Assembly: GCA_013359235.1 (NCBI GenBank)
Contig: JABWCE010000008.1
Coordinates: 62,001-126,000, forward strand
Direction: 5' to 3'
Source of the DNA: Bacteroidota bacterium
GTDB taxonomy: Bacteria; Bacteroidota; Bacteroidia; NS11-12g; UBA9320
Length of the DNA: 64,000 nt
Part shown: positions 1,747 through 42,022 of the stretch, in pieces
How the letters are laid out: every line of letters starts with the position of its first letter
How positions within the stretch are numbered: position 1 is the first letter of the stretch
The notes under the pieces: generated by a model
What the model was told of the DNA's origin: nothing
Seen by the model: the letters and a program-made list of their open reading frames with translations, nothing else
The model's database searches: none
Translations under genes and position numbers: made by a program

Positions 1747-3030
1747 TTAATACATATCTTTTAAGGTACTCATCTCGGTAGAGCGGGTAGAGTCTAAACG
1801 AATTAGGGTAAATAATAATATTGTAAAACCTATAAGTGATGAACCTCCGTAGCTGAAAAAAGGTAAAGGAATACCAATAACAGGTACAAGCCCAATTGCC
1901 ATACCGATATTTATTGTGAAATGGAAAAATAAAATAGAAGCTACGCAATAGGCAAAAATTCTGTTGAAACGGTTTTTTTGCCTTTCGGCTAAATAATATA
2001 CTCTGGAAATCAAAACCACAAATAAAATTATAATAGTCATACTCCCCACCCAGCCCCATTCTTCACCAATTGTGCAAAAAATAAAATCGGTATGTTGTTC
2101 GGGTACATATCTTAGTTTGGTTTGTGTCCCTTGAAGATATCCTTTGCCTAAAAGCCCACCTGAGCCAATTGCTATTTTTGACTGATGCACATTGTATCCT
2201 TCTTTTTTCAAGTCTTCTAATAAACCAAATGTAACCAAAATTCGCTTTTTCTGATGCTCTTTAAGAACATGGTCCATTATTAAATTTATACTGGAACTAA
2301 AACCCGTAACTGCAAGTGTAATGAGCAATACAGGAATTGTAAGATATTTTTTTCTTGAACTGAAAATGTAAAACAACAGTGCAATGGCTGCAAAAACACC
2401 CGAAACCCAAATATTGCCGAAATACAATGTGAGAACAAAAATAATTACCGAGCAAAGAGCAATGATAAACCAAACCCCCGATAAACCTTCGCGGTATAAC
2501 ACAAGAAAAAATGACAAAAAAACCAATGCAGAGCCTGTATCTTTCTGAAGTAAAATAAGTATCATTGGCAATAAAAAAATCAAAACCGAAATTCTGAAAG
2601 TAAATTTATCGCTAAGTCTTGCATCAGGTGTACCCAAAAACTTGGCTAAAGCAAGCGAAACTCCATATTTGGCAAACTCGGCAGGTTGAAGGTTAAAACT
2701 TCCGATAGCTATCCAGTTTTTGTTTCCTGCTACTTCTTTTCCTATAACAAAAACTGAAATAACAAGTGCAATCAGCAAAAAATAAACGGTATAGGAAAAA
2801 ATATTGAATAGTTTATAATCTAAAAACATCCAAAAAATAGCAATAAATGCCGAGATACAAATGAATAAAAATTGTTTTCCGTAGTTTTTTGAAAGGTCGA
2901 AAATACTACCAGCCGATTCATTCCATGATGCCGAATAAATATTAAACCAGCCAAACAAAACCATAATTGCATAAATTACAATAATTGTCCAGTCAAAAGT
3001 GGCAGTATCAATTATTTTTTTTTCTTTCAT
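1747..3030 (-). CDS. rodA: Rod-shape determining protein RodA (SEDS peptidoglycan polymerase)
   Basis: This 427-residue polytopic membrane protein belongs to the FtsW/RodA/SpoVE (SEDS) family. These proteins polymerise lipid II glycan strands during cell elongation, together with PBP2. About ten hydrophobic segments are visible. Family landmarks include the region around LQPAEFAKYGVSLALAKFL (about 135-155) and the C-terminal VPVIGIPLPFFSYGGSSL motif (about 380-400). The periplasmic loop near PEQHTDFIFCTIGEEWGW is the other SEDS hallmark. The start overlaps the end of mrdA by 23 nt, which suggests tight translational coupling. It is the last gene of the mre operon. RodA rather than FtsW is supported by the mre/mrdA context. 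Confidence 0.95.
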   Translation of the reverse strand: MKEKKIIDTATFDWTIIVIYAIMVLFGWFNIYSASWNESAGSIFDLSKNYGKQFLFICISAFIAIFWMFLDYKLFNIFSYTVYFLLIALVISVFVIGKEVAGNKNWIAIGSFNLQPAEFAKYGVSLALAKFLGTPDARLSDKFTFRISVLIFLLPMILILLQKDTGSALVFLSFFLVLYREGLSGVWFIIALCSVIIFVLTLYFGNIWVSGVFAAIALLFYIFSSRKKYLTIPVLLITLAVTGFSSSINLIMDHVLKEHQKKRILVTFGLLEDLKKEGYNVHQSKIAIGSGGLLGKGYLQGTQTKLRYVPEQHTDFIFCTIGEEWGWVGSMTIIILFVVLISRVYYLAERQKNRFNRIFAYCVASILFFHFTINIGMAIGLVPVIGIPLPFFSYGGSSLIGFTILLFTLIRLDSTRSTEMSTLKDMY

Positions 3031-5002
3031 TTTTGTTTAAAGCAAGTTTTTCTGTTATTAAAGCTACATTTTTAAAATTAGTTTTTGTAGTTTTTCTTTT
3101 GCTTGTATCAGTTTTTTGATTATTTATTTCTTCTCTTTCTAATTCATTCTTCTTTTCAACTGAGTCTTTTGATTTAGGGGTTTTAAGCAGATATGCTTTT
3201 AAAATTCTCTCTTCCATTTCGGGCTTTGACGATACGGTATCACGTTTCAGGTATTTTTCAATCATAAGTGTAGCAATTGGTGCAGCCCAAGTAGCCCCAT
3301 ATCCCGCATTTTCAACTATACACGCAATGGCTATTTTTGGATTGTCTTTTGGTGCAAAACACATAAATACTGCATGATTTTTTCCATGTGGGTTTTGTAC
3401 AGTACCTGTCTTGCCGCATATTTCTATACCCTCAATGCCTGTACGGGCTGCGGTTCCGTTTATAAGTGTTTGTTTCATTCCTTCTACTACTACTTCAAAG
3501 TGTTCTTTTTTTATGTTTATTTTATGTTTGGTTTTAAATTTTACAGGAATAGCATTTTTATCATCAATTTTTTTAATGCAATGTGGTGTGTAGTAGTATC
3601 CACGGTTTGCAATAGCACTTATTACATTTGCCATTTGTAATGGAGTTATCAATATTTCGCCTTGCCCTATTGATAGCGATATTATTCTTGTAAAACCCCA
3701 GCGATTGTTGTGCATTTTATCGTAAAATTCGGGTGTTGGAATATTTCCTTCAGATTCAAAGTTTATATCAGAACCAAGTTTGTTATCTAAACCAAATTGC
3801 AACATAAAGTTTCGCCAATGAATATAAGCATCACGTGTATTTTTGTATTTTGGGTTTTCTATAATTTCTTTAAATGTATTACAAAAATATGCGTTACAAC
3901 TATTTGCTACTGCACCTCTCAAATCAAGATTTTGAGGATGTGGATGACAATTTACATGAAGGTTTGCAATAGAATATCCGCGATAGCACGGAAAAGTAGT
4001 TTCAGGGTATATAACTTCTTCTTCAAGCCCTATTAATCCGTTAAGCAATTTGAAAACCGAGCCCGGAGGATATGCAGCCGTTACTGCTCTGTTGTATAGT
4101 GGCAATGTAGGGTCATTTAATAGTTTTCCATAGTTTAGCTTTTTGTTTCTTATAGTTAAAGCTTCGGGCTTATATGCCGGACTTGAAACTAAAGTGAGAA
4201 TTTCGCCGGTTGATGGTTCTATTGCTACTACGCTTCCTGCTTTGTTTTGCATAAGTTTACTTGCATATTCCTGAAGCATCAAATCAAGGGTTGTTGTAAC
4301 TTTTTTGCCCGATACAGGTGTTTTGTCAAATTTGCCTTTTAGATAGCTGCCTTGTTGCCTTCCTCTGCTATCAACCAATATTACTTCTTCTCCTTTTATA
4401 CCTCTCAAATCTTTTTCATAGTATTTTTCTAAACCAGCCAAACCAATAAAATCACCTTTTGAGTAGTATCCATCTTCATTTTGCTTTTCGAGTTGTTTTT
4501 TTGAAATTTCACCTATGTATCCTAAAACATGAGCTCCTGAATTTGTTTTATACATTCTGTCTGTTTTTATTTCTATATAAAATTTTCCAAATTCGTACAT
4601 TCTTTCTTGCAATGCCGCGTATTTGTAATATTCAAGGTTTTTGTAAAATGTGGCACTACCTTTATATACAGTCTTTTCGGCTTTTTTAAGTCTTTCGATA
4701 AAATTTTCTTTACTTATATTTAAAATATTGCAGAAACCAATAGTATCAAAGTTTTTCAATGAAAAAGGATAGGAAATAGACAAATCATAGAAATTATCAT
4801 TAAATGCAATTAGTTTATTGTGCCTGTCGTATATAAGCCCTCTATTTGGGTGAATTGTAAGAATTTTTTTAGAGTTTGCATTTGCAAATTCAACATAAGA
4901 TGTATCAATCACCTGAAGGTAAAATAAGCGAATAGAGTATATTAGCCCAATTGCTATTACAGCTATTATCAGCGATAAATTTCTATTACCACCCTTAGAC
5001 AT
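3008..5002 (-). CDS. mrdA: Penicillin-binding protein 2 (elongasome transpeptidase)
   Basis: This 664-residue class B PBP cross-links peptidoglycan in the elongasome with RodA. An N-terminal membrane anchor spans about residues 8-30 and is followed by the pedestal/dimerisation domain. The transpeptidase domain shows all three active-site motifs: SVFK (Ser about 315, within YPPGSVFKLLNG), SCN (about 368-370) and KTG (about 531-533). The C-terminal tail of about 60 residues is Lys/Glu/Thr-rich and is probably disordered. The gene overlaps mreD upstream by 8 nt and rodA downstream by 23 nt. The length is normal for Bacteroidota PBP2. Confidence 0.95.
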   Translation of the reverse strand: MSKGGNRNLSLIIAVIAIGLIYSIRLFYLQVIDTSYVEFANANSKKILTIHPNRGLIYDRHNKLIAFNDNFYDLSISYPFSLKNFDTIGFCNILNISKENFIERLKKAEKTVYKGSATFYKNLEYYKYAALQERMYEFGKFYIEIKTDRMYKTNSGAHVLGYIGEISKKQLEKQNEDGYYSKGDFIGLAGLEKYYEKDLRGIKGEEVILVDSRGRQQGSYLKGKFDKTPVSGKKVTTTLDLMLQEYASKLMQNKAGSVVAIEPSTGEILTLVSSPAYKPEALTIRNKKLNYGKLLNDPTLPLYNRAVTAAYPPGSVFKLLNGLIGLEEEVIYPETTFPCYRGYSIANLHVNCHPHPQNLDLRGAVANSCNAYFCNTFKEIIENPKYKNTRDAYIHWRNFMLQFGLDNKLGSDINFESEGNIPTPEFYDKMHNNRWGFTRIISLSIGQGEILITPLQMANVISAIANRGYYYTPHCIKKIDDKNAIPVKFKTKHKINIKKEHFEVVVEGMKQTLINGTAARTGIEGIEICGKTGTVQNPHGKNHAVFMCFAPKDNPKIAIACIVENAGYGATWAAPIATLMIEKYLKRDTVSSKPEMEERILKAYLLKTPKSKDSVEKKNELEREEINNQKTDTSKRKTTKTNFKNVALITEKLALNKNERKKNN

Positions 5003-5513
5003 TTGTAGTTTTGCGACTAAAAATAAAACCTGTTAAAATTATTAAAACAGTGGCTGCAATTCCGCTTGTTGCAGCTTTTATCGAGTTTGAAAGTAACCCT
5101 GAAAATTGAAAAGCTTCCATTACATACATTAGCCAATGATAAAAAAGTGAACAAATCAAAATGTAAATTATATGCCATGTAAATGAAATATTTCTGATAT
5201 TTGGCGACATGCCTCGTTCTATCTCTTCCTTATCAAGCGAAAATTTAATATAAAAGAACCTGAAATAGCCCAATGCAGTACTACAAAAGGCATGTATTCC
5301 GTATGTGTTAGAAAGCCCGTCAATAATTGCTCCGCTTACAAAACCGGCTGTTATACAAAGCCATATATCAGTATTTATTGGCAAAAGCAACAAAAACATT
5401 ATAAACAGTTGAATGTTGAAATAGCTGCTTATATCAAGATTGTTGAGTATAAAAACCTGAAAGCACCCAAGCAATATAAATGAAATTATATGTTTTATAA
5501 TACTAATTGTCAA
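4995..5513 (-). CDS. mreD: Rod-shape determining protein MreD
   Basis: This 172-residue membrane protein has about five predicted transmembrane helices and no soluble domain. Sequence conservation in MreD is weak. The call rests on size, topology and the position between mreC and mrdA, overlapping both (11 nt with mreC and 8 nt with mrdA). The motif-like segment ITAGFVSGAIIDGLSNTYG resembles the conserved MreD loop containing GLxxD. MreD links cytoplasmic MreB filaments to the periplasmic MreC/PBP2 machinery. Confidence 0.85.
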   Translation of the reverse strand: MTISIIKHIISFILLGCFQVFILNNLDISSYFNIQLFIMFLLLLPINTDIWLCITAGFVSGAIIDGLSNTYGIHAFCSTALGYFRFFYIKFSLDKEEIERGMSPNIRNISFTWHIIYILICSLFYHWLMYVMEAFQFSGLLSNSIKAATSGIAATVLIILTGFIFSRKTTNV

Positions 5514-19173: not shown

Positions 19174-19207
19174 AAAAAGCCATCATTTGCAAATGATGGC
19201 TTTTTTT
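19174..19207. terminator. Bidirectional terminator between porV and lon
   Basis: A perfect palindrome with 16-nt arms, from AAAAAGCCATCATTTG to its reverse complement, is flanked by an A run and a T run on the two sides. It can therefore serve both convergent genes, porV (+) and lon (-). Confidence 0.9.
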
Positions 19208-30862: not shown

Positions 30863-31378
30863 TTACCAGATACCGATAGTGTTCAAATCCCATTTTTGCT
30901 GGCTACGCAGCACTTTTTCTATCAGTTCTCTTACACAACCGCTACCTCCATTAAAACTTGAAACAAATTCGCTAATATTTAAAATATCTGTTGCAGCATC
31001 AGCCGGGCAACATTTTAAGCCAACTTTTTGCATTATTTGATAATCAGTAATATCATCGCCCATATAAGCAATTTGGCTTAGGTCTATTCCATTGTCGTTT
31101 ATATATTTTTCAAATACGGGTAATTTTTTATGTACTTTATAAAAAATGTCTTCAATTCCTAACCCTTTTAGGCGTGCAATTACCCCGTCGCCACCACCAC
31201 CTGTAATTATACAAATTCTATATCCGAGTTTTACTGCAAGTTGCATAGCAAAACCATCTTTTATATTGAATTGCCTTAGCATATTACCCTCGTCTGTTAC
31301 CAACACTTGTCCGTTGGTCATTACTCCATCAACATCTAATATAAAAGTTGTAATTTCTTTAAGTTTTTTTATATACAT
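30863..31378 (-). CDS. kdsC: KDO-8-phosphate phosphatase (HAD family)
   Basis: This 171-residue HAD phosphatase removes phosphate from 3-deoxy-D-manno-octulosonate 8-phosphate in lipid A/KDO synthesis. It shows motif I FILDVDGVMTNG (Asp nucleophile and acid/base Asp), FNIKDGFAMQLA, motif II IITGGGGDG, and motif III/IV MGDDITDYQIMQKVG. It is short and capless, as expected of KdsC tetramers. I used the ATG at 31378. A TTG at 31387 would extend it by three codons into the end of iscX. It follows iscX by 5 nt, so kdsC, iscX and fdx form one unit. Confidence 0.88.
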   Translation of the reverse strand: MYIKKLKEITTFILDVDGVMTNGQVLVTDEGNMLRQFNIKDGFAMQLAVKLGYRICIITGGGGDGVIARLKGLGIEDIFYKVHKKLPVFEKYINDNGIDLSQIAYMGDDITDYQIMQKVGLKCCPADAATDILNISEFVSSFNGGSGCVRELIEKVLRSQQKWDLNTIGIW

Positions 31379-31383
31379 AAATT

Positions 31384-31626
31384 TCAACTGTTATTATCAC
31401 GCCATTCGTAAACCCAGGCTGACTGTATCATTTCAAGATAAGATTCATTGCATTCTTCTCTGGTTCCTTTAAAGTTTGGAAGACTCAAAACCCATTCAAT
31501 TAAATCTGTGAAACGGATACGATAGATTTTACTTTCACCAAAATCATCTCCAAATTTTTCGTATAAACCAATAGCTATATCTTCTGTGTCTTTCCAATAA
31601 ATAGGTAATTCAAACTTTTTTTCCAT
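31384..31626 (-). CDS. iscX: Fe-S cluster assembly protein IscX
   Basis: This 80-residue acidic protein matches IscX (YfhJ): YWKDTEDIAIGLYEKFGDD (about 10-28), VRFTD-like IRFTDLIEWVLSLPNF and NESYLEMIQSAWVYEW. IscX binds iron and the cysteine desulfurase IscS and tunes cluster assembly. It sits between fdx and kdsC, 16 nt from fdx. No iscS, iscU or hscA gene is visible next to it, so the rest of the pathway must be elsewhere. Confidence 0.88.
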   Translation of the reverse strand: MEKKFELPIYWKDTEDIAIGLYEKFGDDFGESKIYRIRFTDLIEWVLSLPNFKGTREECNESYLEMIQSAWVYEWRDNNS

Positions 31627-31642
31627 TATCGTTATTTTAAAA

Positions 31643-31975
31643 TTAGTGCCCTAAATGAACTGATTGATCTGGTATTATTACCGTTATATCTCCATTTATT
31701 TCGCATTGGCAGGCAAGTCTTGAGTTTAGTTTTGGATTAACTGCTCTATCAATAAAATTTTCTTCAGAATCAGATATTTCAGGTAAAAAATCCATGCCTT
31801 GTTCAATATATACATGGCAGGTACTGCAAGCACAAACTCCGCCGCAATTGTGATGCAATTCTATGTTTTTATCAAGTGCTGTGTCGAGTATTGTGTCGCC
31901 TTGTGTTGCTTCGATTACTGTTTCGGGGGTTTTGCCATCTTCGAATTTGAATTTTACTTTAAATTTTTTTGACAT
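31643..31975 (-). CDS. fdx: ISC-type [2Fe-2S] ferredoxin
   Basis: This 110-residue adrenodoxin-type ferredoxin has its cluster ligands in CGGVCACSTC (pattern C-x5-C-x2-C) and the distal Cys in SRLACQCEI. The segment following the first three ligands, HVYIEQGMDFLPEISDSEE, fits the ISC/adrenodoxin group rather than plant-type ferredoxins. It probably donates electrons for iron-sulfur assembly, in keeping with the neighbouring iscX. A TAAATTTG box lies 7 nt before its ATG. Confidence 0.92.
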   Translation of the reverse strand: MSKKFKVKFKFEDGKTPETVIEATQGDTILDTALDKNIELHHNCGGVCACSTCHVYIEQGMDFLPEISDSEENFIDRAVNPKLNSRLACQCEINGDITVIIPDQSVHLGH

Positions 31976-31982
31976 TTTTTTG

Positions 31983-31990
31983 CAAATTTA
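31983..31990 (-). promoter_or_regulatory. TAnnTTTG box just upstream of fdx
   Basis: This reads TAAATTTG on the minus strand and ends 7 nt before the fdx ATG, so the fdx-iscX-kdsC mRNA would have almost no leader. The -33 is not recognisable. Confidence 0.45.
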
Positions 31991-32039
31991 ATGTATTTTT
32001 AATACGTGTTTTAATGTAATTTTGTTTGTTAAATGGTAA

Positions 32040-32188
32040 ACTAATGCATTCCTTAAAAATAGGATGATTGAGAAAGTAAATATCAAAACTTCAACTGAGT
32101 TTAATATTTCTAAATATTCAAGTGGTTATTATCTATTTAAACTCTATAACGAAAAACAAAATGAAACACATACCATTAGGATTGAACA
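32040..32188 (+). pseudogene. Remnant of a T9SS type-A sorting domain
   Basis: An open stretch with only an internal ATG (32064) encodes the last part of a sorting domain: RMIEKVNIKTSTEFNISKYS, then SGYYLFKLYNEKQNETHTIR. It closely parallels the end of the intact cargo gene at 32853-34451 (RMIEKMSINTSLELNTSKYA ... ETHRIQ). The upstream frame is closed by a stop at 32037-32039, and nothing upstream looks like a cargo protein. It is therefore the stranded 3' end of a lost gene. Confidence 0.6.
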
Positions 32189-32838
32189 TTAATTTATTCA
32201 TTTGCATGCACGCTAAGGCAGGTTTGTATTTTGAACAGGGACTATACACCGATTACCAAAACGTATTAGACAGCATACCTGCCCAAATTGATTTGACAGA
32301 CCAAGAAGCCGACTACCACACCACCTATAGCGATCTTTATAATCAAATAAAAGCTTGGAAACTGGATAGCATGCCATTGCCTTTATTAGATTCTGCTCAA
32401 TTGGTTTGGTTACAAAATTTTTACGAAAGTAACCCTAAGATGCCCGGTATTGGTCATGCGTTACTTGCTATTAATGATACTTCTTATAACATAACAGACC
32501 CTGTTTATATTACAGATACTACAGTTTATTCAGGACCGGAACCTTTTATGCTAGACATAAAAGAAAAGGAAACGGAAAGTACAAAAAAATTAGTAAATGT
32601 ATATCCAAATCCTACCTCAAAAGGCATTACTTTAGAAGTGAAAAACTGTGGTATTGCAGAAAGTTATAAGATAATACTAAGTGATATAAACGGCAGGGAA
32701 ATTATAAAAAGAGAGTGGCCACAAGGTGAAAAGTTTGTAAAAATAGATATGAGCCATTTGCAAGGAGGAATATATTACTGTACTATAAGTAGCCAAGGCA
32801 GAATAATAGAAACCCATAAAGTATTACTTACAAAATAA
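32161..32838 (+). CDS. 5'-truncated T9SS type-A cargo protein
   Basis: About 226 codons from the ATG at 32161 (a GTG at 32122 is also in frame). There is no signal peptide. The first part, CMHAKAGLYFEQGLYTDYQN then VLDSIPAQIDL, resembles the stretch that precedes the sorting domain in many large Bacteroidota surface proteins. The C-terminus is a full type-A sorting domain: VNVYPNPTSKGITLEV, SDINGREII, and GGIYYCTISSQGRII. Without an export signal the product could not reach the T9SS, so this is most likely the 3' remnant of a large gene. Its beginning overlaps the sorting-domain remnant at 32040-32188 in another frame, which marks a recombination junction near 32190. Confidence 0.55.
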   Translation: MKHIPLGLNINLFICMHAKAGLYFEQGLYTDYQNVLDSIPAQIDLTDQEADYHTTYSDLYNQIKAWKLDSMPLPLLDSAQLVWLQNFYESNPKMPGIGHALLAINDTSYNITDPVYITDTTVYSGPEPFMLDIKEKETESTKKLVNVYPNPTSKGITLEVKNCGIAESYKIILSDINGREIIKREWPQGEKFVKIDMSHLQGGIYYCTISSQGRIIETHKVLLTK

Positions 32839-32852
32839 TTATTTTTTAAAAC

Positions 32853-34451
32853 ATGAGGGTTACTTTATTGTATGTATGGTTATTTTCTTTTGCTACATCT
32901 TTTGGGCAGAATGCTTGGTTCAAGCACTTGCCGGGGTGGAGAGCTAAAAGTACTATAGTCATAAACGATACACTATTAACCTGCGGGATGAATAGTTGGG
33001 ATGATAAATTTGGTCACAAGCTCGGCACTTTTTTAACTTGGAATAGCATTAAGGGAGATAGCGTAGATTATTACAAAATTAATTTAGATAGTTTGGAAAT
33101 GGATTCATCCCGGTCAACTACAATCTCTTATAAGTATGCTTCATCAGTATTAATAGGTGTACGTCCCTCATTTTTTTTGGGTTTAAGTTATGGAGATAAA
33201 AAGGAAAGGGCTTTTTTATTTACATTAGATAAATTTCATACTAATAATTATAAATTGAAAGAGCATACAGTAGATACTTTCAATACCTATATCAATAACT
33301 TGGTTTACAATCCATCGTGTAATATTCTTTTCCTTCCTTATGTACTATACACAAAACCACTAGAAACAGAAGTAAATACGGTTATTTATAGAGAAAGGGA
33401 TGGTATTCGAGTGAAGATTAATGAAATCAATAATTCATCATCCTATAAGTATGAAACTAATTGTCACATCAAAAACACCAAATCGGATAAGTCATTTTTC
33501 TTTATAAAACGACAGATGTGGGACTATGCCGGTGCCCCGAGAATGTGGGCAGACTATATCATAAAGATGGATACAAATGGAAATCAGTTGTGGCAATGCT
33601 ACCCTAATAACAGAGACAGTATAAACACCGAAGGTATGCAAATAGTACAAAAGCCTAATGGAAACCTTTTGGTAAGTTGGTGTGATTTTTGGTATAGACC
33701 CTATAAAAATATGATTGGCAGCCAACAACCTCAATTAAACAGAAAATGTACTATATGGTTTGCTGAAATTGATAGTTCAGGCAAAGTGCTTTGGCGTAAA
33801 AATATAAGAAATTATCTTATTGGAAAAATAAAAGATACAACACAAAGTTTAGAACATAATAGAGCTATAGTTACTAAGAATAGTGTGATATGGACAGGTA
33901 ACTACTCCTATTATTATGACCATAATTATTTATTAAAAACCGACTTTGATGGCAACCCGATATGGTACAGGGAATATGAATTATACCCAAATAATACAGC
34001 CTGGCAAGAGTTTAAGTCTTATGATGTAACCGCCACCTCAGATGGAGGCTATGTGTTAACAGGCGAATACATAAGTGATAAAGGAAACATTTTTAAAAAC
34101 GGCTGCCAGTTAGCTACTATAATAAAAGTAGATAGCTTTGGCTGTCTGGAGCCGGGCTGCCAGAAGAATGACAGCTTGGTAGGGGTAAAAACGCTGCCAA
34201 AACCGGTGTGTAAACTATACCCAAACCCGGCCAATGAAACGATACATATTGAATTACCAAAATCTAAAAATGGCGATTATTTACTTGAAGTATATGATAT
34301 GCAGGGTAGGATGATTGAAAAAATGAGTATAAATACTTCACTTGAACTTAACACCTCAAAATATGCCAATGGCTTTATTCTGTTATATATTCTAAATTCA
34401 GAAAGCGGAGAATTTGAAACGCATAGAATTCAAATGAACCATACAAAATAA
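32853..34451 (+). CDS. Secreted T9SS type-A cargo protein of unknown function
   Basis: This 532-residue protein has a signal peptide ending TSFGQ (about 18). A beta-propeller-like body (about 20-445) has repeats containing ...DTNGNQLWQ, DSSGKVLWRKNI, and DFDGNPIWYREYEL, each a strand-turn-Trp unit. Near the end of the body is TSDGGYVLTGEY, typical of such propellers. The sorting domain begins at CKLYPNPANETIHIEL (about 449) with VYDMQGRMIEKM and ends LLYILNSESGEFETHR. It begins 14 nt after the truncated cargo gene. The ligand or enzymatic role is unknown; surface attachment or secretion through T9SS is inferred from the sorting domain. Confidence 0.82.
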   Translation: MRVTLLYVWLFSFATSFGQNAWFKHLPGWRAKSTIVINDTLLTCGMNSWDDKFGHKLGTFLTWNSIKGDSVDYYKINLDSLEMDSSRSTTISYKYASSVLIGVRPSFFLGLSYGDKKERAFLFTLDKFHTNNYKLKEHTVDTFNTYINNLVYNPSCNILFLPYVLYTKPLETEVNTVIYRERDGIRVKINEINNSSSYKYETNCHIKNTKSDKSFFFIKRQMWDYAGAPRMWADYIIKMDTNGNQLWQCYPNNRDSINTEGMQIVQKPNGNLLVSWCDFWYRPYKNMIGSQQPQLNRKCTIWFAEIDSSGKVLWRKNIRNYLIGKIKDTTQSLEHNRAIVTKNSVIWTGNYSYYYDHNYLLKTDFDGNPIWYREYELYPNNTAWQEFKSYDVTATSDGGYVLTGEYISDKGNIFKNGCQLATIIKVDSFGCLEPGCQKNDSLVGVKTLPKPVCKLYPNPANETIHIELPKSKNGDYLLEVYDMQGRMIEKMSINTSLELNTSKYANGFILLYILNSESGEFETHRIQMNHTK

Positions 34452-34538
34452 TTAATAAACTTTTTCTATTTGCTAATAACACGAGTTGTAAGAATAGTAA
34501 TAGTGTAATATACGGTTGTAAAAAAGCAAGAAAATAGG

Positions 34539-34570
34539 TTTGGTAAGTTCAAACAGTCAAAGTAAATTTG
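34539..34570 (+). promoter_or_regulatory. Promoter of the MORN-repeat gene
   Basis: A -33 TTTG (34539-34542), a 20-nt spacer and a -7 TAAATTTG (34563-34570) form a full consensus match. The leader to the ATG at 34635 would be close to 60 nt. The 183-nt gap after the preceding gene contains no clear terminator. Confidence 0.65.
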
Positions 34571-34634
34571 TCTTCAAAAAACGTATGTCATATTCAAAGT
34601 AGCCTTTCGGCAATATGCTAATGTATAAAAAGAA

Positions 34635-35756
34635 ATGAAAAAATTATCGCTTATAATTATTTTACTATCAGTTTCAAAAATATCAAATGCCGGGTATGTT
34701 ATAAATGATTATTTGAAATTTATCGGCAAAAGAGTAAATGAAAATCCATTGGAAAATTGGCTCGATAAAAACAATTTTAAAAAATGTTATGAAGAATTTA
34801 TAGAAGAAGGACCATCAATAAACTTTAAAAACTTTGAAAATGGATACACTCTTAATTTTGATATAAACTTGGTTTTATATTCAATTACATTTTATGATAA
34901 AGGCTCAAGATTTTCGCGGTTTATGGGCTCTTTGCCATACAACTTTAAATTTGGGATGAACAAAGACTCGTTGTACAAAAATTGTCCTTTAAAATTAGAA
35001 GAAACTGATAACAATCCATATATTTTAATTTATAGGCTAAAACACTCAAAAATTGAACTTTATTTCGGTTCAAAAGGCTTAAATCAGGTATATATTTCGC
35101 CACTTGACAGTATGCCCCAGGCAAACGACAACAGTTTTGTAAGACTAATAGCCAACGGCAACAAAGTTACCGGAGATTGCGATACTTCTGAAGGCGAAAT
35201 GACTTGGAATGATGGTTCGGCAACATACATCGGAAATTGGAAAAACAAAATGCCACATGGCAAAGGAAAATTTAAAGATAAATTCAATAATACTTACGAA
35301 GGCGATTTTAAATACGGATATTTTTGGGGAAACGGGAAAATGAAAGTAGCCGGTTATTATTATTACAATGGTGATTTTTTAATAAGCAGGCGACATGGCT
35401 TCGGTACTTGTAATTTTGAAAAACCAAAGGGCGAAAAGTACGAAGGACAGTGGCATTCTGATAAAATGAGTGGTTTGGGTAAATACATTAAAAACTCAAA
35501 TTTTTACTATTATGGCAATTTGAAAAATAATTTGTTTAATGGCAAAGGAAAACTCACAACTTCTGAAGGCTGGATAGAAGGCGAATTTACAGATGGAATA
35601 CCCAATGGCTATATGGTTCAATACATTAAATTGAAAAATCTGACAATAGAAGGTAACTGGGTAAACGGAAAACGAAACGGAAAATTTAAAATCACCGATA
35701 TTGAAACTAAAAAAATCAGCTATAAAAATTTTGAAAACGACATTGAAATGAATTGA
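34635..35756 (+). CDS. Exported MORN-repeat protein
   Basis: This 373-residue protein has a signal peptide (MKKLSLIIILLSVSKISNA). A unique N-terminal domain spans about 20-185. It is followed by about six MORN repeats (about 190-350): ATYIGNWKNKMPHGKGKF, NTYEGDFKYGYFWGNGKM, YYYNGDFLISRRHGFGTC, EKYEGQWHSDKMSGLGKY, YYYGNLKNNLFNGKGKL and WIEGEFTDGIPNGYM. MORN repeats form extended beta-hairpin plates that mediate protein or membrane contacts. There is no sorting domain, so a periplasmic place is likely. Partner and function are unknown. Confidence 0.8.
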   Translation: MKKLSLIIILLSVSKISNAGYVINDYLKFIGKRVNENPLENWLDKNNFKKCYEEFIEEGPSINFKNFENGYTLNFDINLVLYSITFYDKGSRFSRFMGSLPYNFKFGMNKDSLYKNCPLKLEETDNNPYILIYRLKHSKIELYFGSKGLNQVYISPLDSMPQANDNSFVRLIANGNKVTGDCDTSEGEMTWNDGSATYIGNWKNKMPHGKGKFKDKFNNTYEGDFKYGYFWGNGKMKVAGYYYYNGDFLISRRHGFGTCNFEKPKGEKYEGQWHSDKMSGLGKYIKNSNFYYYGNLKNNLFNGKGKLTTSEGWIEGEFTDGIPNGYMVQYIKLKNLTIEGNWVNGKRNGKFKITDIETKKISYKNFENDIEMN

Positions 35757-36129
35757 AATTCCATTTGAATTTTTAACTTAAAATTTTAAACGATTTTTTT
35801 GACATATTCATATAAAAATGATATTGCTAAATCTATTAGAACTGCTTTAAAATTAGCATACAACGTCATTTTTATTTAATTCATCGTATATAAAATAAAA
35901 TTTTTGGTGTAACATATTTTTTTTGTAAGCGTTAATTATATGTACAGCGATTTAAGTAGTGATACTTGTCGTTTGACTTTTTTCATAAATAAGGGTTAAT
36001 TAGATAGAAAATGGTTTCGTTGAACAACGGAGCCATTTTTCTTTATACATGTTTTGGTTTTTAATATAATTTAATGTTGCAGTTTATTTTGAGCCAACTT
36101 TTGGTTAATTTTTATATTTAAAATTAATA
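35757..36129. other. Intergenic region without a recognisable gene
   Basis: This 373-nt AT-rich gap lies between two convergent genes. Apart from the hairpin at 36008-36040 no gene, RNA or repeat was recognised. A 26-codon open stretch near 35800-35880 is too short and unmatched to call. Confidence 0.6.
36008..36040. terminator. Long hairpin between convergent genes
   Basis: A 15-bp stem (AAAATGGTTTCGTTG with CAACGGAGCCATTTT, two G-T pairs) has a very small AA loop, followed by TTTTTC. It can act as a terminator for the MORN gene on the plus strand and for the kinase gene on the minus strand. Confidence 0.8.
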
Positions 36130-38401: not shown

Positions 38402-41400
38402 TTATCTTAGCAAATGAATATTGGTGTTATATGATTTTAATGAACCCTGCATTGGGAGTATCCTTATAAAGCAATGATATACACCATCGGGGCAGTCTTT
38501 ATCCATATATTTTCCATTCCAACCGTCTATTAAATTATTGGTTTCAAAAATCTTTTCGCCCCAGCTATTGTATATTTCCATTAAATATTTTCTGTAATAT
38601 TTGCTGCTTATCGGCTTAAAAACTTCATTAAGTCCATTATTATTTGGTGAAAATGAATTTGGAAGGTAGAAATAATAATTCGGATAAAAATAATTTGCTT
38701 TTTGCATAAAGGTATCCAAACATCCAACATCATTTTCAACTATAAGTGTTATTGAGTACTTGCCTGTATCATTATAAGAAACAATAGGATGTTTTTCATT
38801 GCTTTTTATACCATCTCCCATATCCCAATTATTTATAACTACATCATTAGATGATTCGTTATTAAGTTGTAATTTTATATCATCAAATGACAACAACTGG
38901 GTATAACTGAATAATGCTTTTGGTTTAGCTTTTATTACAATATTTTTAAATGATGAATCTGTACAACCATTGTCGCTTATTGCTTTGTATTTTATCAAGT
39001 ATTTAGCCGTTTTATTTGGAAATTTTTTGTTTACAGGTGTACGAACATTATCGGTGGTTCCATCACCAAAATCCCAAAAATGGTTAATAGTTCCATATTT
39101 TATAATTGTATTATTTGTAAATAGAAAATAATTATCATACCAACATAGGCTATCGTTAGGTATTATTACGTTTGCAATGGGTTGAGGCAATATAATTGCA
39201 TTTTTGCTTTGAGTATCTTTACAATTTTTGTCTGAAATTGATATTAGAGAAATTTTAAAAGTATCTTCAGTGTTGAATTTGTAATTGTAAATGTTAGCAG
39301 AGTCAGAAGTATTGTTATCATTCAAAATCCAAAAATATTTTAATTTACCATTGGCTATTGAACTTGTGCTTGTGAAATTGAAGTTGTTCCTATTCAGGCA
39401 CTGGCGGTCATCATCAATATTAAAATTTGAAGCAGGACTTTCGTTTATAATTATTTTTTTATTAAAGCTGTCAATACAATTATTATTCGAAGTGCAAATT
39501 AGCAAAACATTGAACTCACCGGTTTTTGAATACTTTTTTTGAATTACATCTTTGCTTGTACTTGCTGTATTATCGCCCAGATGCCAAATGGTTGTATAAC
39601 TTCCACTTTTAATGGTTGTTTTATTTAAAAAATCAAAAGCATGTTTTTTGAAACATTGAGTATCCAAATTTGTAGAAAATGCAGTATTGGGAGTGCTTTG
39701 AATATAAACCCATTTACTTATACTATCTCTGCAACTGTTGTTTGAAATATTTACTAAAACTACCTTAAAACTATCTTCTGAATTGTAATGCTTGGAAATT
39801 ATATCTTTTTTAAACTGCATATCATTATCGCCCAACATCCAGTAATTTTTTAAAATAAAACCTTTCTCTATGGTAGATTTATCTGTAAAATTATACGAAT
39901 TGTCTTTAAAACATTGATAAACCTTATTTATATCAAAATCGGACTTTGGATTTACAAAAAATGAAATACTTTTTGAAAAGGTATCATTGCATCCTTTGTC
40001 GGTAGTGGTTATTAAGGTGATTTTATAAATTGTATCCTTACTGTATTTTTTTGAATAAATATTTTTAGATGCCGAAAAACTACCATCGCCCAAATCCCAA
40101 ATACTGTTGTAAGAGCCTTTAGAAACGGTAGTTTTATTAATAAATTCAAAATTGTGCCCCACAAAACATTGTGTAGAGCTATTTATATCAAAATCTATGA
40201 CAGTTTGCGGATTTACTATAATACTTTTTGAAATAGAATCAATGCAATTGTTTTTTGTATGAATAATTAACTTTACCTCAAAACTATCAGCAACAGAAAA
40301 TGATTTGATTAAGGAATCGCTGCTATAACTTGTATTATCTGAAAATTTCCATATCAATGTTTTTAATGAATCTTTAATAAACTTTGATGTGTTTTTAAAA
40401 TTAAAATAGTTGTTTTTAAGGCAATGAGTTTTAATATTATTTATATCAAAAGTAGTAATTATGGTTGAATTAGATATTAAAATAGTATCATAAGCTGAAC
40501 AATCATTTAATGTTGACTTAACCCAGTATTTGCCTGCTGCAGTTACTGTTTTTGTCTTAGATGTAGAAAAATCATTCCACAAATAAAATTGAGCAGTATC
40601 AGCACCGTCTAGTTTTATACTGAAATTACCACATATAAATGTATCAATTCCTAAGTTAATTTCGGGGGTATTAGGAACTTTTATATTTTTTTTAATGTTA
40701 TAAGTTATACCTTTATGGTAAACAGTCAAAGTAATATTGTATCTACCCTTTTTTGAATAAGTATGATATGTTTTTTTATTTCTTGATTGATTAAAATTTC
40801 CTGTATCGGCAAAATTCCAAATCAAAGAATCATAACACGAATTTGAAACCATTTCAAATTTGACAGGAGTTTTTAAATCACATGCTGCATTTACAATAAT
40901 ATCAAACTCAGGTTTTGAGATTGATATTGGATGAATTACATTATTTAATCCTAATTGTGAAGTTTGGCTACCTAAACTAAAACCATTTATTGTATAATTT
41001 GCTTTTGCTCCAATACTATCAGGATTATTTATCACATCAAGATAATTTTGTTTATACTTTGCAATATAAAATTTACCATCTGGACCCATAACAAAATCGC
41101 CAAATCTTAAGTTTTGAGTTGTAAATTTATATCTTGAATTTGCAATATTGCTGACAGTTAGGTTGTATTGATAAACATCATTATAGCTACCAACACCCGC
41201 TTCGCCAACATAAAGTAATTTATTATTTGGTGAAAATTCAATACTGTAACATCTATTATGGTCAAAGTTTGTTAATTTAGTTTTTAGATTCATTTTTCCC
41301 GTTGAATTATCAAAATTATAAATTTCTAAAATTCCTTGATACCAGAAGGTTGAAACAACAAATTTGCCATCAGACGAAGGACGTAAATGTCCAATTGCAT

Positions 41401-42022
41401 TTTCAACAGAATTATTTGTTGTAGGTCCTAAAATTGATATAATTGGTGATGTATTTAGACCTTTATCTGTAAGAAGAAAGACTTTAAAATGGTTGTTGTA
41501 CCAATCATGAGTCAATATCCAATAGTCTTTTTTATTTTGATGTAAAACTGCACATATTTTTTCAGATGTTTTTGAATATATTTTATTATTTTTTGAAATT
41601 ACCTGACCATCACCACCCTTTTTTGACATATCAACAATATGATATTGTAATCCAGTATCATTTGCATAAGAATAAACAGTAAAAACATAATATAAACTAT
41701 CTGATAATGGTTTTGGCACATTAATTACTGCTTCGGCAGACTGTATATGCCCAAAAATTCCACTTCCGTTTGACATTATTTGGTGGTTTTTATTATAAAT
41801 ATTTCTACCATCAGAATAAAATAACAAATTCCCACATGGATCTGACATAGTTGCAACCCCCTCAAGAGTTGCAGTTTTGCCACCTGTTATAGTTTTGGGA
41901 CCTGATGATGAAAAAGATAAACCAGCACCATAACCAAAATACCAATTGATGTACCTGTTCTGCGCATGACATAAGTTTGTTAGTAGAAATAAAACGATTA
42001 TATTTTTGATAAATCTTTTCAT
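38402..42022 (-). CDS. Large PKD-repeat protein with T9SS type-B (CHU_C) sorting domain
   Basis: This 1206-residue secreted protein has a signal peptide ending LCHAQ (about 21). An N-terminal propeller-like domain (about 22-370) starts at INWYFGYGAGLSFSS. From about 372 to 1110 lie roughly eight PKD-type modules and one Ig-like insert. Six central modules of about 85 residues carry a matched Cys pair (QCF... near the start and N-x-C-x-D near the end) and WxxGD turns such as IWDLGDGS, YWMLGDND and FWDFGDGT. The C-terminus (about 1114-1206) is the CHU_C/type-B sorting domain: YLPNSFSPNNNGLNEVF, YNSWGEKIFETNN, and DGVYHCFIRI. It is probably a long surface stalk or adhesin. It is divergent from the Kelch/Ig cargo gene. 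Confidence 0.88.
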   Translation of the reverse strand: MKRFIKNIIVLFLLTNLCHAQNRYINWYFGYGAGLSFSSSGPKTITGGKTATLEGVATMSDPCGNLLFYSDGRNIYNKNHQIMSNGSGIFGHIQSAEAVINVPKPLSDSLYYVFTVYSYANDTGLQYHIVDMSKKGGDGQVISKNNKIYSKTSEKICAVLHQNKKDYWILTHDWYNNHFKVFLLTDKGLNTSPIISILGPTTNNSVENAIGHLRPSSDGKFVVSTFWYQGILEIYNFDNSTGKMNLKTKLTNFDHNRCYSIEFSPNNKLLYVGEAGVGSYNDVYQYNLTVSNIANSRYKFTTQNLRFGDFVMGPDGKFYIAKYKQNYLDVINNPDSIGAKANYTINGFSLGSQTSQLGLNNVIHPISISKPEFDIIVNAACDLKTPVKFEMVSNSCYDSLIWNFADTGNFNQSRNKKTYHTYSKKGRYNITLTVYHKGITYNIKKNIKVPNTPEINLGIDTFICGNFSIKLDGADTAQFYLWNDFSTSKTKTVTAAGKYWVKSTLNDCSAYDTILISNSTIITTFDINNIKTHCLKNNYFNFKNTSKFIKDSLKTLIWKFSDNTSYSSDSLIKSFSVADSFEVKLIIHTKNNCIDSISKSIIVNPQTVIDFDINSSTQCFVGHNFEFINKTTVSKGSYNSIWDLGDGSFSASKNIYSKKYSKDTIYKITLITTTDKGCNDTFSKSISFFVNPKSDFDINKVYQCFKDNSYNFTDKSTIEKGFILKNYWMLGDNDMQFKKDIISKHYNSEDSFKVVLVNISNNSCRDSISKWVYIQSTPNTAFSTNLDTQCFKKHAFDFLNKTTIKSGSYTTIWHLGDNTASTSKDVIQKKYSKTGEFNVLLICTSNNNCIDSFNKKIIINESPASNFNIDDDRQCLNRNNFNFTSTSSIANGKLKYFWILNDNNTSDSANIYNYKFNTEDTFKISLISISDKNCKDTQSKNAIILPQPIANVIIPNDSLCWYDNYFLFTNNTIIKYGTINHFWDFGDGTTDNVRTPVNKKFPNKTAKYLIKYKAISDNGCTDSSFKNIVIKAKPKALFSYTQLLSFDDIKLQLNNESSNDVVINNWDMGDGIKSNEKHPIVSYNDTGKYSITLIVENDVGCLDTFMQKANYFYPNYYFYLPNSFSPNNNGLNEVFKPISSKYYRKYLMEIYNSWGEKIFETNNLIDGWNGKYMDKDCPDGVYHCFIRILPMQGSLKSYNTNIHLLR

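Follow-up and report, generated by a model that had tools for sequence, protein, structure and literature searches.

A block of type A T9SS cargo genes with headless sorting-domain tails, probably inserted between ferredoxin and MORN-repeat genes in a Bacteroidota genome

Gene content of the locus

The window analyzed here is 64,000 nucleotides long and spans bases 62001-126000 on contig 44 in a draft Bacteroidota genome, G000, which comprises 2.65 Mb in 44 contigs. It was compared with the rest of its own genome and with six congeners, G001 to G006 (C plus a number denotes a contig). Between a ferredoxin gene on the minus strand (31643-31975) and a MORN-repeat gene on the plus strand (34635-35756) lies a block at 32036-34624, with approximate ends, that contains two tails of T9SS cargo genes and one intact cargo gene, all on the plus strand. 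The original prediction placed the feature at 32040-32838. The tails within those limits are real, but the limits are too narrow, as the whole stretch belongs together.

In the first tail (tail 1, 32060-32192), only the 3′ part of a type A C-terminal sorting domain (CTD) is present; the tail has neither a body nor a start of its own, and its frame opens after 32039. The match of 32064-32192 to PF18962 covers profile positions 38-73 of 75 at 21.4 bits (E 3.1e-4; cut-off 27 bits), and TIGR04183 gives 19.2 bits (cut-off 23 bits). Thus, tail 1 is half a domain that scores under both curated cut-offs, unlike the type A cargoes. The second tail, ORF2 (225 aa, 32161-32838), ends in a complete type A domain (32599-32838) that exceeds both cut-offs (PF18962 47.1 bits, E 2.9e-12; TIGR04183 35.4 bits), and it differs from typical cargoes in that a short N-terminal part appears to be fused to it. 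The presence of two cargo C-termini in different frames, as originally described, is therefore borne out. The intact cargo gene (532 aa, 32853-34451) also ends in a domain over both cut-offs (43.9 and 35.1 bits), has a signal-like start by a crude home-made score, and can be classed as a type A cargo.

Tail 1 was previously said to match the end of this intact neighbor closely, which overstates the similarity. The two sequences share 72% identity over 78 nt, 74% over 73 nt, and 45% of amino acids over 44 residues, whereas the CTD of a cargo on contig C76 of G003 is nearer (61% of amino acids over 44 residues; 71.7% of DNA over 138 nt). The stops preceding the frames of tail 1 and ORF2 end at 32039 and 32079, and the two frames overlap by 32 nt (32161-32192), where the CTD end ETHTIRIEH and its stop are read in one frame and the ORF2 start MKHIPLGLNI in the next.

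The ATG at 32161 opens MKHIPLGLNINLFICMHAKA, followed by G, and this stretch (32161-32217) is weakly signal-peptide-like as judged from hydropathy and an AXA-like site. On our home-made signal score it is equaled by 28 of the 490 ATG frames in the window, real genes included, and the same score misses one probable signal peptide (38402-42022). Similar overlaps occur elsewhere in G000, two in C24 (32 nt each) and one in C15 (29 nt), and because these three place the CTD end and the following ORF alike, the ATG at 32161 is plausible as a candidate start of ORF2. Of the four signal-like stretches, that of ORF2 is the weakest (maximum 10-residue hydropathy 1.83 versus 2.24-2.72). The earlier statement that neither tail has an export signal is thus doubtful for ORF2 only. 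It is no more than possible that ORF2 is made and exported.

The remainder of ORF2 has a clearer origin. Residues 20-225 correspond to the C-terminal 206 residues of a 1405-aa frame in G001 (C31; 49% of amino acids), and residues 20-94 align with the end of a 1238-aa frame cut by a contig end in the same genome (C37; 95%). The DNA agrees with the latter at 205 of 226 positions, and the differences in 75 codons comprise 17 silent ones and 4 in replaced codons; therefore, most of this divergence probably arose under purifying selection. Homology to the large relatives begins at residue 20 (32218), after the signal-like stretch, so that the breakpoint formerly proposed near 32190 roughly holds and the putative signal peptide would not derive from the large cargo. 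ORF2 is thus most probably the C-terminal end of a large cargo, of which about 206 residues were kept and the 5′ part lost (the relative's frame has 1,238 residues before the contig end). Its closest relative, the cargo on C37, carries a subtilase domain (PF00082). A stop codon divides the C31 gene into two frames, of 310 and 1405 aa. The C31 and C37 cargoes (at L096:2-3715 and L092:10750-14967) align only from residues 554 and 518 onward (56% of amino acids); these two large cargoes of G001, one of them a subtilase, have about 720 C-terminal residues in common and N-terminal parts that do not align, so that a single genome combines different N-terminal parts with one kind of C-terminal part. 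The C-terminal module of ORF2 was found in 4 of 97 genomes, its own included, which is too few for statistics.

Type A sorting domains are abundant in this genome. TIGR04183 has 148 matches in G000 at E values up to 1, and 129 of these exceed the cut-off (counted by hand; 150 of 167 candidates scored). At least 13 of the 148 lie within 300 bases of a contig end, compared with 1.5 expected, so the sorting domains are repetitive enough to have interrupted the assembly. It might be proposed on this basis that the block is an artefact in which contigs were misjoined at repeated sorting-domain DNA. However, tail 1 and both other CTDs of the block have no near-identical copy among the own-genome matches (the best of the others reaches 74% over 73 nt), which leaves no obvious repeat to misjoin. 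Furthermore, an ORF2-type CTD followed by the intact cargo recurs in other genomes (see below). We therefore consider a misassembly very improbable.

Several other features of the genome were recorded. When CTD loci of G000 were compared with one another (the best 30 of the 148 hits, seven hand-picked stretches, and the window), a CTD-end repeat of about 110 nt emerged, which is present in the genome in 12 copies that are 90-95% identical (C36, C23, C11, C39, C19, C21, both ends of C7, C5, C35, C29, and L104:4836-4956 on C6). Eleven copies are no more than 300 bases from a contig end; the twelfth is isolated and follows a UDP-glucose dehydrogenase gene. We considered this repeat as a second mobile class and dropped the idea, as the 5′ sides of the copies are mostly unassembled. 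Within the window, positions 19174-19205 form a perfect 32-nt palindrome. A gene at 38402-42022 (minus strand), 4 kb away from the type A cargoes, encodes a protein of 1206 aa that carries several PKD domains together with a sorting domain of type B (CHU_C).

Empty sites in congeners and two further inserts

The block is missing at this locus in all six congeners. In G001, contig 29 matches window positions 30864-32033 (at 2828-4002) and 34625-36044 (at 4054-5485), and no more than a short spacer separates the two matches. The flanks are 181, 211, 210, 371, and 386 bases apart in G003, G006, G004, G005, and G002, respectively, and part of this distance is made up of diverged starts of the flanking genes. 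The block ends are fuzzy, since identity to the nearest empty site is only about 76%. The right arm of the block (34452-34624) has no homologue among the loci compared, and the match to G001 resumes at 34625. The simplest reading is that the block was inserted in the lineage of the window, although absence in relatives alone cannot separate gain from loss.

The original prediction attributed the two tails to recombination between paralogous cargo genes that deleted their 5′ parts. Elements of this proposal are retained, since recombination near the start of the sorting domain and 5′ loss in ORF2 are both indicated. Moreover, tail 1 and the CTD of the intact neighbor form a direct repeat (2247 nt apart) that could support a deletion, and most of the body of ORF2 has been lost. 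However, a deletion between those two repeats would have taken out the intact cargo, which is present, and comparison of the locus among relatives, as had been suggested, shows no cargo there in any of the six congeners. Because the block is absent from all six congeners, insertion with the tails as baggage is more likely than local loss of 5′ parts, and in-situ deletion between resident paralogues is not supported; we dropped it as the main explanation and regard it as improbable.

Two further sites bear on this question. In G003 and G006, a related cargo (on C94 and C6, respectively) sits between tRNA-Arg and panD. The same site is empty in G004, where it is about 93% identical to that of G003 and the flanks are 13 bases apart; G005 and G002 likewise lack the approximately 2 kb, and G000 and G001 align on the panD side only. 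Around panD, G003 and G004 resemble each other more than they resemble G006, yet the insert is common to G003 and G006, and therefore a loss in G004 or a transfer between G003 and G006 is also required. The second site is on C76 of G003, where a related cargo (64% of amino acids) lies within an insert of 1,982 bases that is absent in G004, G001, and G005; G006 can be aligned there on one side only, and no match was obtained from G000 or G002.

At both sites, a headless piece of the ORF2 sorting domain precedes the cargo, consisting of 12 codons and a stop on C94/C6 and of a 72-residue frame on C76. From 32650 onward, the CTD DNA of ORF2 is identical to the headless tail on C76 at 175 of 189 nt. 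The cargo starts 4-14 nt after the tail in the G003 and G006 inserts. G001 has a fuller version of this order on C31, where the end of the large cargo overlaps the start of a small cargo by 4 nt.

Known classes of mobile DNA were also considered. No transposase-like ORF was seen in the block (ORFs checked by eye, and the two main ORFs with Pfam), no terminal inverted repeats were found at the ends of the three inserts, and no target duplication was seen by eye at the two sharper empty sites. A transposon or MITE was rejected, as neither a transposase nor terminal repeats were seen. Similarly, an RNA element was rejected for lack of an Rfam match in 31900-34700, and a phage origin for lack of a PHROGs match for ORF2 or the intact cargo. 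Integron gene cassettes are single genes that move between loci as units. The inserts described here resemble them in that single genes appear to move as units, but the ends of the three inserts differ, and no common end sequence was seen among them.

Recombination at the body/sorting-domain boundary

The intact cargo of the block is a mosaic of body and sorting domain. Its body is identical to that of the cargo on C94 of G003 at 1196 of 1329 nt (90.0%) and to that on C6 of G006 at 1186 of 1329 nt (89.2%), compared with 887 of 1329 nt (66.7%) for the cargo on C76 of G003. The relationship is inverted in the CTD, for which the identity is 102 of 207 nt (49.3%) to each of the first two and 179 of 231 nt (77.5%) to the third. 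Among 503 sites that separate the C94 and C76 cargoes, the best split, at 34085/34100, partitions them 354:42 before and 23:84 after, and none of 1000 shuffles reaches this value, with the caveat that shuffling ignores dependence between neighboring sites. In 60-nt steps, the identity to the C94 cargo is still 95% in the step that starts at 34060 and is down to 57% in the one that starts at 34180. These observations place a probable breakpoint zone at 34085-34180, just before the CTD, which begins at about 34215.

Tree comparisons point partly in the same direction. The tree of the body rejects a grouping of the window cargo with the C76 cargo (AU p 0.00035). The tree of the CTD is too weak on its own to reject the grouping of the body (window, C94, and C6; AU p 0.416), and consequently the case for a CTD swap rests on the identities and the site split.

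The DNA flanking the inserts is only 66-68% identical between G000 and G003 or G006. Against this background, the 90% identity of the body indicates that the body has passed between the lineages. The same result bears on the idea that a cargo cluster was ancestral at the window locus and was lost independently in the congeners. As noted above, absence alone cannot tell gain from loss, but this scenario would require loss in all six and would leave unexplained why the body is 90% identical to cargoes that G003 and G006 carry at a different locus, when the background is near 67%. We consider it extremely improbable.

The C94 and C6 cargoes are 96.2% identical in the body and identical at 222 of 222 nt in the CTD, a near-identity that suggests a recent exchange between G003 and G006. 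Separately, at L093:2197-2690 and its L094 counterpart, the two species do not differ in the CTD, the 3′ end, or the spacer leading to panD, whereas panD itself is different, which may be a sign of recent interspecies exchange. The CTD type of these two cargoes has 13 further matches in G003, 9 in G004, 21 in G006, and a single match in each of G001 and G002, with no match in G000 or G005 (up to 40 candidates scored per genome; six matches confined to the 3′ flank of the query left out). At the protein level, its match to two such cargoes with frames of 1280 and 1138 residues is limited to the last 90-100 residues. Recombination between cargo genes close to or at the start of the CTD is supported, as is the presence of different CTDs on near-identical bodies. 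Cargo turnover, which had earlier been suggested as a possibility for this locus with new N-termini exchanged onto common sorting domains, is likewise supported.

Headless tails and the proposed movement of cargo genes

Eight headless tails could be read on both sides. These are tail 1 of the window, those on C24, C27, C15, and C6 of G000, that on C76 of G003, that of the C94/C6 inserts (counted once), and that on C20 of G006. They form a non-systematic sample, from which a tail on C29 of G000 was left out because the contig ends 5 bases past it. A cargo on the same strand is next downstream in six of the eight; the exceptions are the tail on C6 of G000, which follows the UDP-glucose dehydrogenase gene, and that on C20 of G006. 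Headless CTD tails therefore look like the 5′ baggage of the next cargo gene. Two neighboring observations are worth recording. In L105:1-2569 (C27 of G000), a unit of about 0.93 kb is duplicated in tandem (69% identical) and contains a CTD tail as well as the start of the cargo that follows. At L103:8513-9057 (C24 of G000), a transposase-like remnant, named by eye, lies directly upstream of the headless CTD tail and a cargo array.

The overlaps in G000 invite a different interpretation. Perhaps the CTD end and the start of the next cargo, with its signal peptide in the next frame, constitute a built-in, repeated joint. A body placed between two joints would gain a signal peptide in front and a CTD behind, and recombination between joints could add, remove, or swap whole bodies while restoring both parts. 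Tail 1 would be such a joint in a cassette system that operates without a transposase, and ORF2 would be its product, a young chimeric cargo. Indeed, the pattern ATGAAACNCATA occurs seven times in G000, compared with once for its reversed control, and four of the seven sites (the window, two in C24, and one in C15) are CTD ends with a signal-like ATG frame in the next frame. In C24, the overlap joins cargoes of 551 and 330 aa whose bodies do not align, and yet they show 84.6% DNA identity in a 246-nt CTD stretch that begins at the YPNP motif and ends shortly after the stop. Downstream of the 330-aa gene, only a 22-aa signal-like ORF is left. In C15, a CTD tail of 17 residues contains the start of a 286-aa cargo.

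However, only four such cases are known, two of which come from one array, and the signal-like stretch of ORF2 is the weakest among them. The pattern has 18 sites in the congeners (in five of the six), compared with 19 for the reversed control, and none shows a recognizable CTD end with such an overlap, although the site on C41 of G003 is too short for a judgment. No joint sequence common to the genus was thus found. Nor do the G003 and G006 inserts include an overlap. We consequently view a dedicated joint as a tentative and rather unlikely explanation, and ORF2 as a product of such a system as equally doubtful.

The reading we favor, at a probability of roughly 65%, is that a segment of a T9SS cargo cluster was inserted between the ferredoxin and MORN-repeat genes, with tails carried along as baggage and CTDs exchanged near the body/CTD boundary. 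The segment would comprise, in order, the 3′ CTD tail of a first cargo, a shortened second cargo (a signal-like start joined to the C-terminal 206 residues of a large cargo), and a third cargo that is complete. In this genus, cargo genes can stand head to tail with little or no spacing, some with start codons inside the preceding CTD, and the movement of a cargo gene with its start would bring along the tail of the gene before it. Headless CTD tails would precede cargo genes for this reason. Recombination near the body/CTD boundary would swap CTDs, such that bodies could spread over species and loci and end up with different CTDs. As for the route of entry, we infer uptake of foreign DNA, perhaps with some sides joined by homologous recombination at sorting domains and the other sides illegitimately.

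Related phenomena are known in Porphyromonas gingivalis, in which surface proteins undergo domain rearrangement and allelic exchange and in which alleles and adhesin modules are swapped between strains of one species (PMC5266723). Those proteins, like the cargoes described here, are modular T9SS substrates diversified by recombination and horizontal transfer. In the present case, whole cargoes with preceding CTD tails appear to enter new loci and CTDs differ between species; CTD replacement is not described in the available parts of that source. BrickBuilt and other MITEs of P. gingivalis adjoin CTD genes, and they are intergenic with inverted-repeat ends, according to the parts available (PMC4596501). 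Although mobile DNA is associated with T9SS sorting-domain genes in both cases, the inserts reported here have no inverted-repeat ends, and it is the cargo genes that make them up. In the literature searched, which largely excluded subscription journals and included the available parts of PMC5266723, PMC4596501, and PMC11285876, we found no account of headless CTD tails preceding inserted cargo genes, nor of an overlap between the end of a CTD and the signal peptide that follows.

Bacteroidota genomes can carry more than 100 T9SS cargoes with the same kind of sorting domain, as G000 does, and the joining of bodies and sorting domains in these proteins is sparsely documented in the literature searched. 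Here, one cargo family has apparently been caught at three insertion places, with empty sites in relatives and with differing CTDs on a near-identical body. For annotation, a short headless sorting-domain frame before a cargo gene may be baggage of that gene, or it may contain the start of the next gene.
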